Part shown: positions 7,783-56,699 of the stretch, one piece after another
Position numbering within the stretch: position 1 is the first letter of the stretch
How the letters are laid out: every line of letters starts with the position of its first letter
Source of the DNA: Shimia sp. R10_1
Lineage (GTDB): Bacteria > Pseudomonadota > Alphaproteobacteria > Rhodobacterales > Rhodobacteraceae
Length of the DNA: 64,000 nucleotides
Direction: 5' to 3'
Assembly: GCF_017744095.1 (NCBI RefSeq)
Contig: NZ_JAGHQX010000001.1
Coordinates: forward strand, 806,001-870,000
Program-made: the position numbers and the translations under genes
Notes under the pieces: generated by a model
The model's database searches: none
Told to the model about the DNA's origin: nothing
Seen by the model: only the letters and a program-made list of their open reading frames with translations

Positions 7783-8544
7783 TCACACCTTTGGATCCGG
7801 GTTCACCGTAAAGCCATCCACGGCAATCACCTGCCCGCTGATCATCCGCGCTTTGTCGGAACTCAAGAATACCGCCATATCCGCCACATCACCCGCCTCC
7901 ACAAAGGCGCCCAGCGCTGTGCCTGAGGCATAGCCCTCATAGACCGCATCCCGCGTCATGCCTTTGGCCGCCGCTTCCCGTGCCAGAACGCCCTCCATAC
8001 GCGGCCCTTCCACCGCGCCGGGACAGATCACATTGGCCCGCACACCAAAGCTGCCCAGCTCCATCGCCAGCGTTTTGGTCAGCCCGATCACCGCCCATTT
8101 CGCCGCTGCATAAGGCGCGCGATACGGGTAGCCGTATTGCCCCGCCGTTGAGCTGGTGATCACAATCGCCCCCTGCCCGGCCGCCTTCATCATAGGTGCG
8201 GCATATTTGGCCGCCAGAAACGCGCCTTCCAGATTAACCGCCACGCAGGCCTGCCAATCTTGCAGTTTTATGTCCTCCACCGCCGCTGTTGGCCCAGCAA
8301 CTCCGGCATTTGCGCAAAGCGCATCCAGCCCGCCCCATGCGGCCTCCACCTCCGCAAAAAGTGCGGCCACGCCCGCCTCATCCGTCACATCAAGCTGCGT
8401 CTTGCGCCAGCTATCCGGCACCTCCGCCAAAGCCGCGCCATCCAGATCCGCGACCCAGATCTGCCAGCCGTCGCGCGCAAAAGCCTCCGCCATCGCGCGC
8501 CCAATGCCAGAGCCGCCCGCTGTGATCAGAACCCGGCCGCTCAT
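7783..8544 (-). CDS. SDR-family oxidoreductase of the carnitine locus
   Basis: A 253-residue classical short-chain dehydrogenase. The NAD(P)-binding TAGGSGIGRA, the NAG motif in CANAGVAG and the active-site YAAAK (with the upstream Ser in TSSTAG) are all present. Its ATG overlaps the stop of the carnitine dehydrogenase-thioesterase gene by four bases (ATGA), so translation is coupled. Context suggests a step in carnitine or short-chain hydroxyacid breakdown, for example a 3-hydroxybutyrate-type oxidation of the four-carbon product, but this is inference. The two genes form a leftward operon. Confidence 0.88.
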   Translation of the reverse strand: MSGRVLITAGGSGIGRAMAEAFARDGWQIWVADLDGAALAEVPDSWRKTQLDVTDEAGVAALFAEVEAAWGGLDALCANAGVAGPTAAVEDIKLQDWQACVAVNLEGAFLAAKYAAPMMKAAGQGAIVITSSTAGQYGYPYRAPYAAAKWAVIGLTKTLAMELGSFGVRANVICPGAVEGPRMEGVLAREAAAKGMTRDAVYEGYASGTALGAFVEAGDVADMAVFLSSDKARMISGQVIAVDGFTVNPDPKV

Positions 8545-10016
8545 CGTGGCTGCCCCACATAGCGCCCAGCCCCTTCCGGAGCAGGCAGATCCGCCTGCGC
8601 GGCGCAGATCATCTTCAGATTGGCGGCGATCTCTTCGCTAAACGGCGCTGGCCGCCGCGTCTCAAGGCTCACATGAATCAGGATATGCTCCCCCGTCGCC
8701 AAGAGCTTTTCGCCCGCATACATCTCATGCCAGACATGCATCTTCTTGCCTTCGCCCATCAGCACGCGGGTGCGCACCTCAATCACGCTGCCCAAATGGG
8801 TCTCGTCAATGTGCCGGATATGGGTCTCGGCGGTGAAAAAGCTGCCACCCGTGGCGATATAGGCCTGATCACAGCCGATGATCTCCATCAGCCGGTCAGT
8901 GGCATCGGCAAAGGCATGCAGATAGCGGCTCTCGGTCATATGCCCGTTGTAATCCAGCCAGTCGATCGGCACCGCCCGGCGCACCGTCACAATCGGCTGG
9001 CTTGGGTCCGCAATCTCGCTGGCTGTGCGCACCATGCCCGCCTCGGCAGAGAGCTTGGCGTCATGCTTGTTCAGCACCGCACCGGAGGCAAAATCCTGCG
9101 CCTTCAAGGCCCGCATCATCGACACAAGATTGTTGTCGCGAATGCGCTCCATCTCACGAATGCTCATATGGCCGGATTGTGCGTCAGACTGCCCCGCAAT
9201 CAGATCCACCAGCTCTTCGGTGAACTCCGGCACATCCATCAGCTTGGTCCAGGGCCATTCCAGCGCAGGGCCAAACTGCGCCATAAAATGCTTCATCCCG
9301 GCCTCGCCACCCGCCACGCGATAGGTGTCAAACAGCCCCATCTGCGCCCAGCGAATGCCAAAGCCCATGCGGATCGCCTCATCAATCTCCTCGGTGGTGG
9401 CAATCCCGTCTTTCACCAGCCACAGCGCCTCACGCCACACCGCCTCCAGGAAGCGATCCGCAATATGGGCATCAATCTCCTTGCGCACATGCAGCGGGAA
9501 CATCCCCACCCCGGACAAAATCTCTTTCACACGCGCCACCATCTCCGGTGGGTTTTTCTCGGTGGGCACCACCTCTACAAGCGGCATCAGGTAGACCGGA
9601 TTAAACGGATGGGTCACCACAATCTGCGCCGGTCGCGTCGCACAGCCCTGCAGCTCGCTCGGTTTAAAGCCACTGGTGGAGCTGCCAATGATGGCCTCCT
9701 CGGCGCAATGCTCCTGCAGCGTCTGATAGACCTTCCGCTTCAGCTCCAGCCGCTCGGGCACGCTCTCCTGAATCCAAGCCGCGCCGTCCACAGCTTCAGA
9801 CATGGTCTCATGAAAACTTAGCGTCCCCTCGGCTGGCAAAGCCGTGTCACTCAACCCCGGCAGGCTCACCCGCGCATTGGCAATCACCTCGCCAATCTTG
9901 CGCTCTGCCTCCGGGTCCGGATCAAACACCCGCACATCCCAACCATTGAGCAGAAACCGCGCCGCCCATCCGCCGCCAATCACCCCGCCGCCAATAATCG
10001 CTGCTGTCTTTGTCAT
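8541..10016 (-). CDS. Carnitine 3-dehydrogenase fused to a thioesterase
   Basis: Oxidises L-carnitine to 3-dehydrocarnitine with NAD+. The first ~320 residues are a 3-hydroxyacyl-CoA-dehydrogenase-like fold: Rossmann motif IGGGVIGGGWAARFL, conserved STSGFKPSEL and HPFNPVYLMPLVEVV. The last ~150 residues are a hot-dog thioesterase with the core DYNGHMTESRYLHAFADATD. In Pseudomonas the equivalent activities (CdhA and the betainyl-CoA thioesterase CdhB) are separate proteins; here they form one 491-residue chain. The frame reaches 10034, but the ATG at 10016 has GGAAAGGA eight bases upstream, and that site lies inside the longer version, so I chose 10016. Confidence 0.92.
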   Translation of the reverse strand: MTKTAAIIGGGVIGGGWAARFLLNGWDVRVFDPDPEAERKIGEVIANARVSLPGLSDTALPAEGTLSFHETMSEAVDGAAWIQESVPERLELKRKVYQTLQEHCAEEAIIGSSTSGFKPSELQGCATRPAQIVVTHPFNPVYLMPLVEVVPTEKNPPEMVARVKEILSGVGMFPLHVRKEIDAHIADRFLEAVWREALWLVKDGIATTEEIDEAIRMGFGIRWAQMGLFDTYRVAGGEAGMKHFMAQFGPALEWPWTKLMDVPEFTEELVDLIAGQSDAQSGHMSIREMERIRDNNLVSMMRALKAQDFASGAVLNKHDAKLSAEAGMVRTASEIADPSQPIVTVRRAVPIDWLDYNGHMTESRYLHAFADATDRLMEIIGCDQAYIATGGSFFTAETHIRHIDETHLGSVIEVRTRVLMGEGKKMHVWHEMYAGEKLLATGEHILIHVSLETRRPAPFSEEIAANLKMICAAQADLPAPEGAGRYVGQPR

Positions 10017-10093
10017 CCCGTGTCCTTTCCGCATGATACGGGTCGCTGCACCTCTGTGCGCGCCCTAGTCTCCCTCAAAAAAGGAGACCGCCT

Positions 10094-10583: not shown

Positions 10584-10604
10584 AAAGGCCGCGCAACGGC
10601 CTTT
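10584..10604 (+). terminator. Terminator after the DUF1203 gene
   Basis: An AAAGGCCG/CGGCCTTT stem with loop CGCAA, followed by CTTAAC; the complement also has a T-run. It lies 26 bp after the DUF1203 stop and could also act on leftward transcripts. Confidence 0.7.
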
Positions 10605-10643
10605 CTTAACCATTGCAGCGCCGACTCAGGGGCCGTTTTTGGC

Positions 10644-10685
10644 ACCGACGCAATACCGTAGGGATACCGACGCGATACCGACGTG
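10644..10685. repeat. Phased 11-bp tandem repeat, tract A
   Basis: Four units in exact 11-bp register: ACCGACGCAAT, ACCGTAGGGAT, ACCGACGCGAT and a last ACCGACGTG. The tract lies in the gap between the DUF1203 terminator and the end of the beta-keto acid cleavage gene. A TTAACCA string occurs 38 bp before the first unit. A sister tract with the same unit and ending is at 55850-55891. Function unknown; the 11-bp step is one helical turn. Confidence 0.85.
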
Positions 10686-10778
10686 TTGTGTTTTTGGCCA
10701 AACAGCGCGCGGTAGGCACAAAAGCCTGCAAAGCTTACCCCGCCGCACGCAGCTGTTGCGCCGCCCTCCCGCAAGGCC

Positions 10779-11690
10779 TCAGCCCTTCGGCGCGCGTTTC
10801 ACCAAGCCAAGCTTTTCGCGCACTTCTGCCGGGCCAATCACCCGCGCGCCCATGTTCTCAATGATGGTGCCCGCGCGCTCCACAAGCTGCCAGTTTTCCG
10901 CCAGCACCCCTTTGTCGAGCCACAGATTGTCCTCCAGCCCCACGCGCACATTGCCGCCTGCCAGCACCGCAGCCGCCACATAGGCCATCTGATTGCGGCC
11001 CAGAGAAAACGCGCTAAACGTCCACTCATCCGGCACATTGTTGACCATCGCCATAAAGGTGTTGAGGTCATCCGGCGCGCCCCACGGCACGCCCATACAG
11101 AGCTGAACAAGCGCATTGGGCTCCAGCACGCCATCTTTCACAAGCTGTTTGGCATACCACAAATGCCCGGTATCAAAGGCCTCAATCTCGGGCTTAACCC
11201 CCAGATCCGTCATCATTTTTCCCATCGCCGTCAGCATGCCCGGCGTGTTGGTCATCACATAATCGGCTTCGGCAAAGTTCATTGTGCCGCAATCCAGCGT
11301 GCAGATCTCCGGCAGGCATTCCGCCACATGCGCCACCCGCTCCGTGGCCCCCACCATATCTGTGCCCGCCACGGTGGGCAGCGGGGTCTCGACACCGCCA
11401 AACACCATGTCACCGCCCATGCCAGCGGTCAGGTTCAGCACCATGTCGACCTCACTGTCGCGAATGCGGTCGGTCACCTCGCGATAGAGGCCCAGATCAC
11501 GGCTCGGCGCACCTGTTTCCGGATCACGCACATGGCAATGCACCACCGCCGCGCCCGCCTTGGCCGCCGCAATCGCGCTGTCGGCAATCTGCTTCGGGCT
11601 GCGCGGCACATGCGGGCTGCGATCCTGCGTCCCACCCGATCCGGTCACGGCACAGGTGATGAAAACCTCACGATTCATTTGCAGCGGCAT
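10779..11690 (-). CDS. Beta-keto acid cleavage enzyme (dehydrocarnitine cleavage)
   Basis: Member of the BKACE (DUF849) family, which condenses a beta-keto acid with acetyl-CoA to give a CoA ester and acetoacetate. The 303-residue protein has the family features FITCAVTGSGGTQDRSPHVP, the metal-binding HCHVRDPETGAPSRD and NLTAGMGGD. Beside a carnitine dehydrogenase and a thioesterase, the likely substrate is 3-dehydrocarnitine, giving betainyl-CoA and acetoacetate (as for CdhC in Pseudomonas). ATG at 11690 follows AAAGGA; the frame extends to 11780 but would run into the divergent regulator gene. The 74-bp gap to that gene must hold both promoters. Confidence 0.9.
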   Translation of the reverse strand: MPLQMNREVFITCAVTGSGGTQDRSPHVPRSPKQIADSAIAAAKAGAAVVHCHVRDPETGAPSRDLGLYREVTDRIRDSEVDMVLNLTAGMGGDMVFGGVETPLPTVAGTDMVGATERVAHVAECLPEICTLDCGTMNFAEADYVMTNTPGMLTAMGKMMTDLGVKPEIEAFDTGHLWYAKQLVKDGVLEPNALVQLCMGVPWGAPDDLNTFMAMVNNVPDEWTFSAFSLGRNQMAYVAAAVLAGGNVRVGLEDNLWLDKGVLAENWQLVERAGTIIENMGARVIGPAEVREKLGLVKRAPKG

Positions 11691-16351: not shown

Positions 16352-16735
16352 ATGGCTGATGCATCCGCTCCAGTCGACCTGCTTGTCTGCACCACCTGCC
16401 GTGCAGGTCAGCCCACCGACATTGAAGGGCCACGCCCCGGCACCCAGCTGTTCGAAGCCCTCAGGGCGTCAGATTTGCCAGAAAACGTGACCGTTAAAGG
16501 CGTGGCATGCTTTTCCAACTGCGACTCTGGCTGCTCGGTCACCATTCGTGGTGGCGATGATCGCTGGACATACGTCTATGGCAATTTCACTGGCGCAGAT
16601 GACGCGGATCTGGTTGCCGAGGGCGTGACCAAATACGCCGAAACCGTCGATGGGCTGGTGCCTTGGCGCGAACGCTCGACTCACTTCCGCAAAAACTGCA
16701 TTGCACGCATTCCCCCACTGGAGATCCCTGAATGA
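16352..16735 (+). CDS. DUF1636 ferredoxin-like protein
   Basis: The 127-residue protein is a DUF1636 member, a small cysteine-rich protein often encoded beside cobW. Six cysteines are visible: CTTC near the start, CFSNCDSGC in the middle, and NC near the C-terminus. The spacing resembles thioredoxin-like ferredoxins and could bind a metal or an iron-sulfur cluster. It is the first gene after the riboswitch, and its stop overlaps the cobW ATG, so it is likely co-regulated with and may work with CobW. ATG at 16352 was chosen for its AGGGA nine bases upstream; the frame extends to a GTG at 16292 inside the expression platform. Confidence 0.85.
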   Translation: MADASAPVDLLVCTTCRAGQPTDIEGPRPGTQLFEALRASDLPENVTVKGVACFSNCDSGCSVTIRGGDDRWTYVYGNFTGADDADLVAEGVTKYAETVDGLVPWRERSTHFRKNCIARIPPLEIPE

Positions 16736-17829
16736 GCACTCTTGAAAAACTTCCCGTCACCGTCATCACCGGCTTTCTGGGATCCGGCAAAACAACGCTG
16801 GTGCGCAACCTGATGACAAAGCCGCAGGGCAAACGCCTCGCGGTGATTGTGAATGAATTTGGCGATGTTGGTGTCGATGGCGAGATCCTGAAATCCTGCG
16901 CAATTCCGGACTGTCCAGCGGAAAACATCATGGAGCTGGCGAATGGCTGCATCTGCTGCACCGTGGCCGATGATTTCATCCCCACGATCGAAGCTCTGAT
17001 GAACCTAGAGACCCGCCCAGAGCACATCCTGATTGAAACCTCTGGCCTGGCCTTGCCAAAACCGCTGCTGAAGGCGTTTGACTGGCCTGATATCCGCTCC
17101 AAGATCACTGTGGACGGCGTGATCGCACTGGCTGATGCGGAGGCTGTCGCCGATGGCCGCTTTGCAACTGATGTGGCTGCTGTGGATGCGCAGCGCGAAG
17201 CGGATGAAGGTCTGGATCACGAAACCCCTCTGTCTGAGGTGTTTCTCGATCAGATCAACTGCGCCGACATTGTGCTTTTGACAAAACCAGACCTCGCAGG
17301 CCCCGAGGGCGTTGCCAAAGCCAAAGAGATCGTGCTCTCCAAAGCACCACGCGCCCTGCCGGTGGTCGAAGTCGCCGAAGGTGATGTGGACCCGCGCGTT
17401 ATCCTTGGCCTTGAAGCCGCCGCAGAAGACGATCTGGAAGCCCGCCCCTCCCATCACGAAGATCATCATCACACGCATGATCACGACGATCACCATCATG
17501 ACGACGACCATCATCATGATCACCACCACGACCACAATCACGATGCTTTCAACAGCATTGTCGTAGATGTGCCAGAACAATCCGATCCCGCGGCTTTTGC
17601 CGCTAAGATCGAAAAAATGGCCAAAGATCTCAACATTCTGCGCGTCAAAGGCTACGCCGCGGTGGAAGGCAAACCCATGCGGCTTCTGGTACAGGCGGTG
17701 GGCGCGCGCGTGCGGCATCAGTTTGACCGCCCATGGAAGGCCGAAGAAGGCCGTCAGGGCCGTATGGTCGTGATTGCCGAACATCATGACGTAAATGTGG
17801 ATGCGATCCACGCAGCTCTGGTAGACTAA
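16732..17829 (+). CDS. cobW: CobW, G3E-family GTPase metallochaperone
   Basis: A GTP-dependent metal chaperone proposed to supply cobalt to the CobNST chelatase. The P-loop GFLGSGKTT lies at residues 14-22, the metal-binding CxCC motif is in NGCICCTV, and the G4-like LTKPD follows. Between the GTPase and C-terminal domains is a stretch of about 35 residues made almost only of His and Asp, a strong metal-binding segment. The C-terminal CobW_C domain ends with RMVVIAEHHD. The gene overlaps the DUF1636 gene by four bases and is 6 bp from cobN. Confidence 0.95.
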   Translation: MSTLEKLPVTVITGFLGSGKTTLVRNLMTKPQGKRLAVIVNEFGDVGVDGEILKSCAIPDCPAENIMELANGCICCTVADDFIPTIEALMNLETRPEHILIETSGLALPKPLLKAFDWPDIRSKITVDGVIALADAEAVADGRFATDVAAVDAQREADEGLDHETPLSEVFLDQINCADIVLLTKPDLAGPEGVAKAKEIVLSKAPRALPVVEVAEGDVDPRVILGLEAAAEDDLEARPSHHEDHHHTHDHDDHHHDDDHHHDHHHDHNHDAFNSIVVDVPEQSDPAAFAAKIEKMAKDLNILRVKGYAAVEGKPMRLLVQAVGARVRHQFDRPWKAEEGRQGRMVVIAEHHDVNVDAIHAALVD

Positions 17830-55752: not shown

Positions 55753-55849
55753 GGCCAGCACTGCGCATCCTGCCTGACTGACGGGTTCGGACCCCGCGTT
55801 TCCGTTTAAGACCGTCGCCACCTTAACCAATACGCGGTCGGAAAAACGC

Positions 55850-55891
55850 ACCGTCGCGATACCGCTGCAATACAGACGCAATACCGACGTG
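55850..55891. repeat. Phased 11-bp tandem repeat, tract B
   Basis: Four units in exact 11-bp register: ACCGTCGCGAT, ACCGCTGCAAT, ACAGACGCAAT and a last ACCGACGTG. Same length, unit, copy number and ending as the tract at 10644-10685. TTAACCA begins 27 bp before the first unit. It lies between a small membrane-protein gene and the convergent PuuD-like gene. Confidence 0.85.
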
Positions 55892-55919
55892 CGAAATCAA
55901 CGTTTTCTGGCGTTAACCT

Positions 55920-56699
55920 TTAGGCGGATTTCAGAACCGGCCGCGCTTCTTTGTTGGCAGACCAGGCCCGCACCGCCTCGCCAAAGGCTTCAAAAAGCGG
56001 GCGGCTCACAGGGTCCACCCCCGCCTGCCATTCCGGATGCCACTGCACCGACATGGTAAAGCCCGGCGCGTCTTTGATGTAGATTGCCTCTGGCGTCCCA
56101 TCAGGCGCGTAACCATCTATAATCACACGGCTTCCCGGTCGTTTGATGCCCTGCCCGTGCAAAGTGTTGGTCAGAACTTCGCGCGCGCCCATAAGCTTGT
56201 GAAAGGGCCCATCCTCGCTAAAGGTCACGATATGGCGCAGCTCAAATTTCTCTTCCAGCGTGCCATCTGGCGGCATGCGGTGGTTGTCCCGCCCCGGCAG
56301 ATCGCGAATTTCGGGGTAAAGACTGCCGCCCATGGCAACATTAACCTCTTGAAATCCCCGACAAATCCCAAAGAACGGCTGCCCAGATTCCACACAGGCC
56401 CGCACAAGCGGGAGCACAATCGAATCCCGCGCCCGATCAAACGCGCCATGCGCCTCCGTGGCCGCTTCCCCATATTCCTCTGGATGGACATTTGGCCGCC
56501 CGCCCGTCAGCAGAAAGCCATCACAGGTTGCCAGCAGTTCCTCAACGGACAGATAGCGCGGGTCCGCAGGAACAAGCAGCGGCATACAACCAGAAACCAT
56601 TGAAACCGCTTCGGAATTCATGGCTCCCCCAGCATGTGCTGGATACTCGTCATTAATAAGGTGGTGGTTTCCGATAATCCCGACGACTGGTCGCGTCAT
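55920..56699 (-). CDS. PuuD-like gamma-glutamyl-GABA hydrolase family protein
   Basis: The 259-residue class I amidotransferase-like hydrolase (C26 type) has the catalytic Cys in FFGICRGFQEVNVAMGG, the His-Glu pair in SVQWHPEWQ and the start RPVVGIIGNHH. Members release GABA or a similar acid from a gamma-glutamyl amide. It is the kind of hydrolase expected in the amine pathway at 30-38 kb, but lies 17 kb away as a separate gene, so any link is speculative. GlcG lies 65 bp upstream on the same strand. Confidence 0.88.
   Translation of the reverse strand: MTRPVVGIIGNHHLINDEYPAHAGGAMNSEAVSMVSGCMPLLVPADPRYLSVEELLATCDGFLLTGGRPNVHPEEYGEAATEAHGAFDRARDSIVLPLVRACVESGQPFFGICRGFQEVNVAMGGSLYPEIRDLPGRDNHRMPPDGTLEEKFELRHIVTFSEDGPFHKLMGAREVLTNTLHGQGIKRPGSRVIIDGYAPDGTPEAIYIKDAPGFTMSVQWHPEWQAGVDPVSRPLFEAFGEAVRAWSANKEARPVLKSA

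Follow-up and report, generated by a model that had tools for sequence, protein, structure and literature searches.

Why would a bacterium carry, outside its genes, direct repeats in exact 11-bp register, and carry the same design at more than one place? The question is raised by 64,000 nucleotides of Shimia sp. R10_1, the whole stretch analysed here and referred to as the window. The original prediction had pointed to four 11-bp units at 10644–10685 (tract A) and a near-copy at 55850–55891 (tract B), both outside genes and both with TTAACCA 27–38 bp before the first unit. The sequence reads exactly so: both tracts are intergenic, and the motif begins 38 bp ahead of tract A and 27 bp ahead of tract B. 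TRF called each as a period-11 array, and each was matched by R1, a sequence-only profile built from 16 arrays, and by a broader profile, R2. The elements and their neighbours, in window coordinates, are:

10606–10612, + strand: flanking motif TTAACCA ahead of array A, beginning 38 bp before unit 1
10635–10643, + strand: T-tract stretch GTTTTTGGC left of array A, belonging to the extended element
10644–10685, + strand: tract A, four 11-bp units ACCGACGCAAT ACCGTAGGGAT ACCGACGCGAT ACCGACGTG, from the sequence and from R1 and R2 matches
10691–10695, + strand: T tract right of array A, here at +47 to +51, from the sequence
10779–11690, − strand: BKACE gene (PF05853, Pfam), neighbour of tract A, given as context outside the element
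55823–55829, + strand: TTAACCA upstream of array B, beginning 27 bp before unit 1
55840–55849, + strand: A-tract stretch GGAAAAACGC left of array B
55850–55891, + strand: tract B, four 11-bp units ACCGTCGCGAT ACCGCTGCAAT ACAGACGCAAT ACCGACGTG, from the sequence and from R1 and R2 matches
55912–55918, + strand: GTTAACC downstream of array B, inside the +50 to +69 peak described below
55920–56699, − strand: peptidase C26 gene (PF07722, Pfam), neighbour of tract B, given as context only

R1 scored tract A at 58.6 bits (G000:C11:816641-816686) and tract B at 50.3 bits (G000:C11:861847-861892). A two-unit pattern allowing up to three mismatches had four matches in the window, all within tracts A and B (0.00 expected from 100 shuffles), and R2 at E ≤ 0.1 found these two and no further array within the window. 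A hairpin terminator-like sequence, read by eye, adjoins tract A. Elsewhere, the window holds a cobalamin riboswitch (RF00174, 16058–16274, + strand, 87.7 bits) upstream of a gene with CobW domains (16732–17829) that itself contains short CAT/GAC-rich tandem repeats at 17452–17528. A fused 3-hydroxyacyl-CoA dehydrogenase and thioesterase-like protein is encoded at 8541–10034 (− strand), near the BKACE gene; presumably these serve carnitine breakdown.

Tracts A and B belong to a larger set of about 65 arrays in their own genome. The R1 search returned 69 matches at E ≤ 1, from which four (second registers of kept arrays, or weak pieces) were dropped to leave 65 separate arrays; R2 gave 67 matches for the same 65, its counts being able to include second registers. 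A search of the whole genome for ACCG-N7-ACCG-N7-ACCG, as the original prediction had proposed, found 25 occurrences (overlapping triples counted) compared with 4 for the reversed control. An alignment, A2, holds 74 of 105 candidate arrays, picked by hand among those with a high ungapped score. Each array comprises three ACC[G/T]nCGC[A/G]AT-like units and a partial fourth in 11-bp register with A/T tracts alongside and, in many cases, GTTAAC farther away, the consensus running from an A/T tract through approximately ACC[G/T]nCGC[A/G]AT, AC[C/A]GnCGC[G/A]AT, AC[C/A]GACGC[A/G]AT and ACCGAC[G/A] to a second A/T tract. In the 65 arrays, AT content was 0.78–0.91 at positions −7 to −4 and 0.63–0.82 at +44 to +48.

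The original prediction saw in the copies a conserved spacing with drifting bases, and took this as a sign of selection for spacing. The spacing half of that picture stands, as match length equalled the model span in all 65 arrays, that is, without an indel. What it did not anticipate is that the bases are conserved too, the core holding 59 bits over 41 columns in the 65 arrays of this genome and 50 bits in 74 arrays of the relative G017. By arithmetic, about 17 bits would suffice to place 65 sites in 4.4 Mb, and the arrays hold far more. AT/GC alternation at 11 bp was strong in the core and was weaker and phase-shifted outside it. The flanking motif proved enriched rather than constant, with TTAAC or GTTAA within 60 bp of 40 of the 65 arrays here and of 25 of the 74 in G017. 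Its density near arrays was 12.7 per kb in this genome and 5.1 per kb in G017, compared with 1.3–1.6 per kb in G017 intergenic controls and 0–1.4 per kb in the window's own, with peaks near −30 and from +50 to +69 relative to the array.

The arrays sit mainly in the gaps behind genes. With our own codon-usage script as gene finder, rather than a standard annotator, none of the 65 arrays lay inside a predicted gene, and 5 of the 74 in G017 did. A junction test on the 139 arrays of both genomes left out 5 here and 7 of the 74 in G017 that lay at a contig end or inside a predicted ORF. Arrays were over-represented in convergent gaps (45 of 127 versus 47 of 332 background gaps, P = 1e-6) and depleted from divergent gaps (9 of 127 versus 87 of 332, P = 3e-6), the background still including array-bearing gaps. 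In tandem gaps, array strand was independent of gene direction (41 ++ versus 32 −−, P = 0.35).

Spacing along the chromosome was more even than simulated. The coefficient of variation was 0.62 in the R10_1 genome, 0.67 in G017 and 0.70 in G010, compared with 0.90, 0.96 and 0.92 in simulations, and each genome had a single gap below 10 kb where 8.0, 11.5 and 12.4 were expected. Below 20 kb the deficit in the R10_1 genome was marginal (10 versus 14.8 expected, P = 0.054). These genomes share inherited sites and hence are not independent tests; short contigs and contigs with fewer than three arrays were left out, and contig ends were approximated in G010. Polarity and spacing were both computed from incomplete R1 lists (74 arrays for 85 R2 matches in G017, 78 for 85 in G010 and 34 for 94 in G004). 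R2 run over 929 kb of G017 recovered the listed arrays, a weak piece (C3:185.5 kb, E = 0.004) and one new array (C1:212,453), which lies at least about 35 kb from its neighbours on the + strand amid negative skew; because nothing more was added, the R1 list misses few arrays in that stretch. The largest array-free gap in the G017 list spans 213 kb (G017:C2:929840-1143184); GC skew changes sign there, and the gap is possibly the terminus.

The strand of the arrays follows GC skew, their C-rich ACCG strand being the strand with fewer G. Of the 65 arrays in the R10_1 genome, 57 lay on the strand that local GC3 skew predicts (P = 3e-10), and the other 8 opposed it. Agreement in G017 was 71 of 74 with local skew and 66 of 74 with a skew track from 40 separately fetched 16-kb stretches. 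For G004, with 94 R2 matches, 31 arrays were used after 3 of 34 were dropped from contigs with no sampled skew; 25 of the 31 agreed with sampled skew, including 16 of 17 on the largest contig, where strand and skew switched together. In the sole other genus tested, G094, agreement was 12 of 18 and not significant (P = 0.24), from a list of 16 R1 and 2 R2 matches out of 20 R2 matches. GC skew is commonly taken as a stand-in for fork direction, and if skew stands for the fork here, most arrays would point one way relative to replication.

Four arrays near contig ends of the R10_1 genome have related flanks (G000:C1:307, C34:359893, C3:76336 and C38:261167; L001, L100, L106 and L113) and precede about 250 bp of sequence rich in G and T and poor in C. 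We take the sequence downstream of them to be an rRNA promoter, and the arrays point with transcription of the presumed rRNA; Rfam found no rRNA in the four pieces. Should rRNA genes be co-oriented with the fork, the four arrays would be reversed relative to the rule.

Many arrays have been kept in place between species, as the original prediction had expected of a functional family. At the place of tract A, the 3′ end of the BKACE gene, 18 of 23 relatives had a same-orientation match scoring 28 of 41 or better, with opposite-strand scores of 13–24. Part of an array is visible in G006, which is cut by a contig end, and G005 scored 27 of 41, a sequence that may be read as a worn array; no array was found at this place in the array-bearing G002 or in G009 and G012. 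The place of tract B, the 3′ end of the peptidase C26 gene, scored at least 28 in 12 of 23 relatives, 10 had none and G014 has an apparent partial array. Genome-wide, 31 of the 65 arrays have a flank gene in common with a G017 array, and the 45 flank pairs lay at the same gene end in every case and in the same orientation in 44. The remaining 34 arrays had no common flank gene.

Conservation of the cores exceeds that of their surroundings. Over 30 of the 31 sites shared with G017 (the opposite-orientation site, at 50% identity, was left out), orthologous cores were 74% identical compared with 72.5% for non-orthologous pairs (P = 0.011), and the flanks were 29% identical ungapped, near the 27% of unrelated flanks. 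Because a neutral fossil of that age would resemble its flanks, the cores have been kept near consensus by selection or by copying. In the R10_1 genome, 27 pairs of cores matched at 39 or more of 41 positions (independent columns would give 3 on average and 11 at most), and in 26 of these pairs the flanks were only 16–42% identical; in G017 no core pair exceeded 0.90 identity. Since such pairs exceed chance, copying contributes to the sameness of arrays in the R10_1 lineage. The exact 41-bp core of tract A (C11:816641), its unit order partly fixed, recurs at two other places, C35:340555 and C38:146939, amid unrelated flanks. This repetition at three places suggests that cores are copied or converted by a process whose limits coincide with the array.

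The arrays are widespread in Shimia and patchy beyond it. With R2, 21 of 24 Shimia genomes had 64–98 matches and three had none or one (one match in G005, none in G009 and G012). Of 13 other genera examined with R2, nine had 11–49 matches and four had 1–3. R1 found matches in 17 of 248 genomes of a family sample and R2 in 5 of 337 genomes of a class sample, both scored for only 24 and 16 candidates per genome, respectively, under stricter filters; the sole class match outside the family was weak (E = 7e-5). G035, also outside the family, had one weak match (E = 0.0036). Among nine named stretches with a strict consensus, seven were from Shimia and two from other Rhodobacteraceae with no genus name, and the genus is taken to be Shimia on this basis. 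Searches of tract A against plasmid and phage records (blastn, E ≤ 0.01) and of the exact array pattern against viral contigs found no match, a short query making both insensitive. The two smallest genomes in the genus sample, G006 (3.1 Mb) and G020 (3.0 Mb), have 98 and 90 matches; they carry as many as larger genomes do, so the number of arrays is not tied to genome size.

In a midpoint-rooted tree of three proteins, the array-less genomes, three in all, group as a single clade (support 0.96) among array-bearing ones. This nesting and the arrays in other genera suggest that the arrays are absent from one Shimia clade through loss. GyrA identities group the array-less genomes otherwise, with G009 nearest to the array-bearing G013, and the number of losses is thus uncertain.

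We think there is an even chance that the arrays are high-specificity, directional binding sites of a dedicated DNA-binding protein that mark the chromosome. The invariant letters and register, the polarity of the direct repeats and their loss as a group argue for a dedicated sequence-specific protein, and even spacing, gene-end placement and fork-related orientation argue for a chromosome-level job rather than gene regulation. The putative protein would contact one face of the DNA once per helical turn, as the original prediction had suggested. It could consist of similar DNA-binding domains joined in a chain, or of monomers bound in a row head to tail, with one domain or monomer per 11 bp and all on the same helix face. 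Spaced tens of kb apart, its sites would mark the chromosome; most would lie in a gap behind a gene, and most would be oriented alike relative to the fork. The bound complex would probably act on something that travels along DNA or senses direction, for instance in segregation, in loop extrusion, in the progress of forks or in the control of division. Both the equation of GC skew with fork direction and the choice among these processes we infer. Several results weigh against the binding-site reading: the non-significant polarity of G094, the 8 arrays of the R10_1 genome that oppose local skew, the four presumed rRNA-promoter arrays if they are indeed reversed, the turnover of sites (34 of 65 with no shared flank, and G002 with no array at the place of tract A) and the contribution of copying to array sameness.

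Dispersed, oriented chromosomal sites are already known as a general class, within which the arrays would be a putative functional member. In plasmid R1, ParR molecules bind next to one another on the tandem 11-bp direct repeats of the parC centromere, a single locus beside the parMR genes. The arrays share the tandem 11-bp direct repeats but are dispersed, and three genes next to tracts A and B that were scanned encode metabolic or unknown proteins, not parM or parR (around the other arrays, 35 genes were viewed by eye). The REP and BIME elements of enterobacteria are dispersed, intergenic palindromic repeats at gene ends. The arrays are likewise dispersed, intergenic and at gene ends, but they are direct repeats with no consensus fold (RNAalifold, 0 pairs over 49 columns). 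Noc binds about 70 specific sites over the chromosome, palindromes largely missing from the terminus (PMC4331003). Arrays resemble Noc and SlmA sites in number and in how widely they are spread; they differ in being polar direct repeats rather than palindromes, and the fold of 16 arrays again gave 0 pairs. AIMS are described as leading-strand-biased 8-bp words that rise in abundance and bias toward the terminus and are proposed to shape chromosome architecture (PMC5993296); the arrays are also strand-biased but are long and specific.

Some features of the arrays could be explained with no role in chromosome layout. A protein bound at them might stop RNA polymerase from one side, terminating transcription, perhaps the head-on kind, at gene ends and shield rRNA promoters from read-through, a roadblock or insulator that would fit arrays at 3′ ends and between converging genes, their rarity at divergent promoters and their position before the presumed rRNA promoters; the polarity could then arise because the side that lets forks pass is turned toward the fork. 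We nevertheless judge such a roadblock unlikely. Strand in tandem gaps is independent of gene direction, so that in many cases a block acting from one side would have no gene before it; arrays tens of kb apart are too few for most gene ends to have one, even spacing is not predicted, and tract A already adjoins a terminator-like hairpin. Still less probable is a repeat, selfish or passive, that spreads by copying into gaps free of genes and takes its orientation from insertion at single-stranded lagging DNA, although some elements inserting at forks do show orientation bias. The near-identical cores amid unrelated flanks, the site turnover and the preference for gaps behind genes are what such copying would leave. 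Yet many sites retain their orientation between species whose flanks no longer align, spacing is over-even, and presence within the genus is all or none. Carriage as mobile-element cargo was considered and rejected on the empty plasmid, phage and viral-contig searches, which for all their insensitivity also count against a selfish repeat. More doubtful again is a strong DNA gyrase site, at which phased A/T minor grooves would wrap DNA on the GyrA C-terminal domain to give spaced sites of supercoiling behind genes. The E. coli gyrase motif has 47-bp flanks and a 10.75-bp GC period, and its sites concentrate downstream of operons with high transcription (PMC6379681). The 11-bp AT/GC alternation of the array core, with A/T tracts outside, recalls this helical phasing and that of the Mu strong gyrase site; strong gyrase sites alternate over about 130 bp, and around the arrays the pattern is weaker and phase-shifted beyond the core. 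That motif is degenerate, however, and the same paper presents the downstream enrichment as seemingly not hard-wired in sequence (PMC6379681), whereas the arrays have fixed letters (50–59 bits) in an exact 11-bp unit. In addition, no GyrA residue column splits the 3 array-less from 10 array-bearing genomes, and GyrA C-terminal repeat matches number seven per genome in 12 of the 13 and eight in the array-less G009; because neither columns nor repeat counts separate the groups, gyrase leaves the all-or-none loss unexplained.

We consider it very improbable that the arrays are an ordinary transcription-factor regulon or an RNA element, such as a Rho utilisation site in which YC recurs at 11-nucleotide steps. 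Certain response regulators do have sites that look like direct repeats of 11 bp, and C is abundant on the array strand. Against this, arrays avoid the divergent gaps, their strand in tandem gaps ignores gene direction, and 35 genes starting toward an array no more than 260 bp away had no common theme by eye, going by their presumed functions. An RNA element was tried as a candidate and rejected, RNAalifold having found 0 consensus pairs in 16 arrays and Rfam nothing in five array loci. The least probable account is an FtsK-guiding sequence of the KOPS or SRS type, read by the FtsK gamma domain. On each replication arm KOPS favour one strand (PMC2680272), and the arrays likewise lie chromosome-wide with a strand bias, taking GC skew as stand-in and with G094 not significant. 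KOPS are, however, only 8 bp long (PMC2680272), compared with about 41–60 bp in four phased units for the arrays, which number fewer than 100 copies, are evenly spaced and intergenic, and are missing all together from a clade in which FtsK-gamma has not changed. Each of 25 genomes, array-less ones included, had one FtsK-gamma, and among 22 aligned over the last 260 residues the one separating column lay outside the gamma tail. FtsK-gamma and GyrA were thus rejected as readers, since no column of the gamma tail (22 genomes) or of GyrA (13 genomes) separates the groups and neither protein explains the all-or-none pattern. In the accessible part of a study of FtsK and dif in a roseobacter, KOPS are mentioned only in general terms (PMC7901474).

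Returning to the reading of the arrays as binding sites of a dedicated protein, we tentatively propose, as a possibility that we hold at somewhat less than even, that they form a chromosome-addressing system. In this system, 65–98 evenly spaced, replication-oriented arrays of 4 × 11 bp would be read by a clade-specific multi-domain protein and would guide a moving machine (the fork, a translocase or a loop extruder) in place and direction; once the reader was lost, the arrays would decay together. Among the matches listed in searches of open-licence publications, judged by titles and the starts of abstracts, no paper describes these arrays. The direction signals of chromosomes are known mainly as short words, and the arrays are long, low-copy, evenly spaced and oriented. 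Because the set is present or absent among close relatives, comparing gene lists could reveal the matching protein, and the system lends itself to testing in these marine bacteria. Such a site would make it possible to study cleanly how a bacterium arranges its chromosome and how it reads it.
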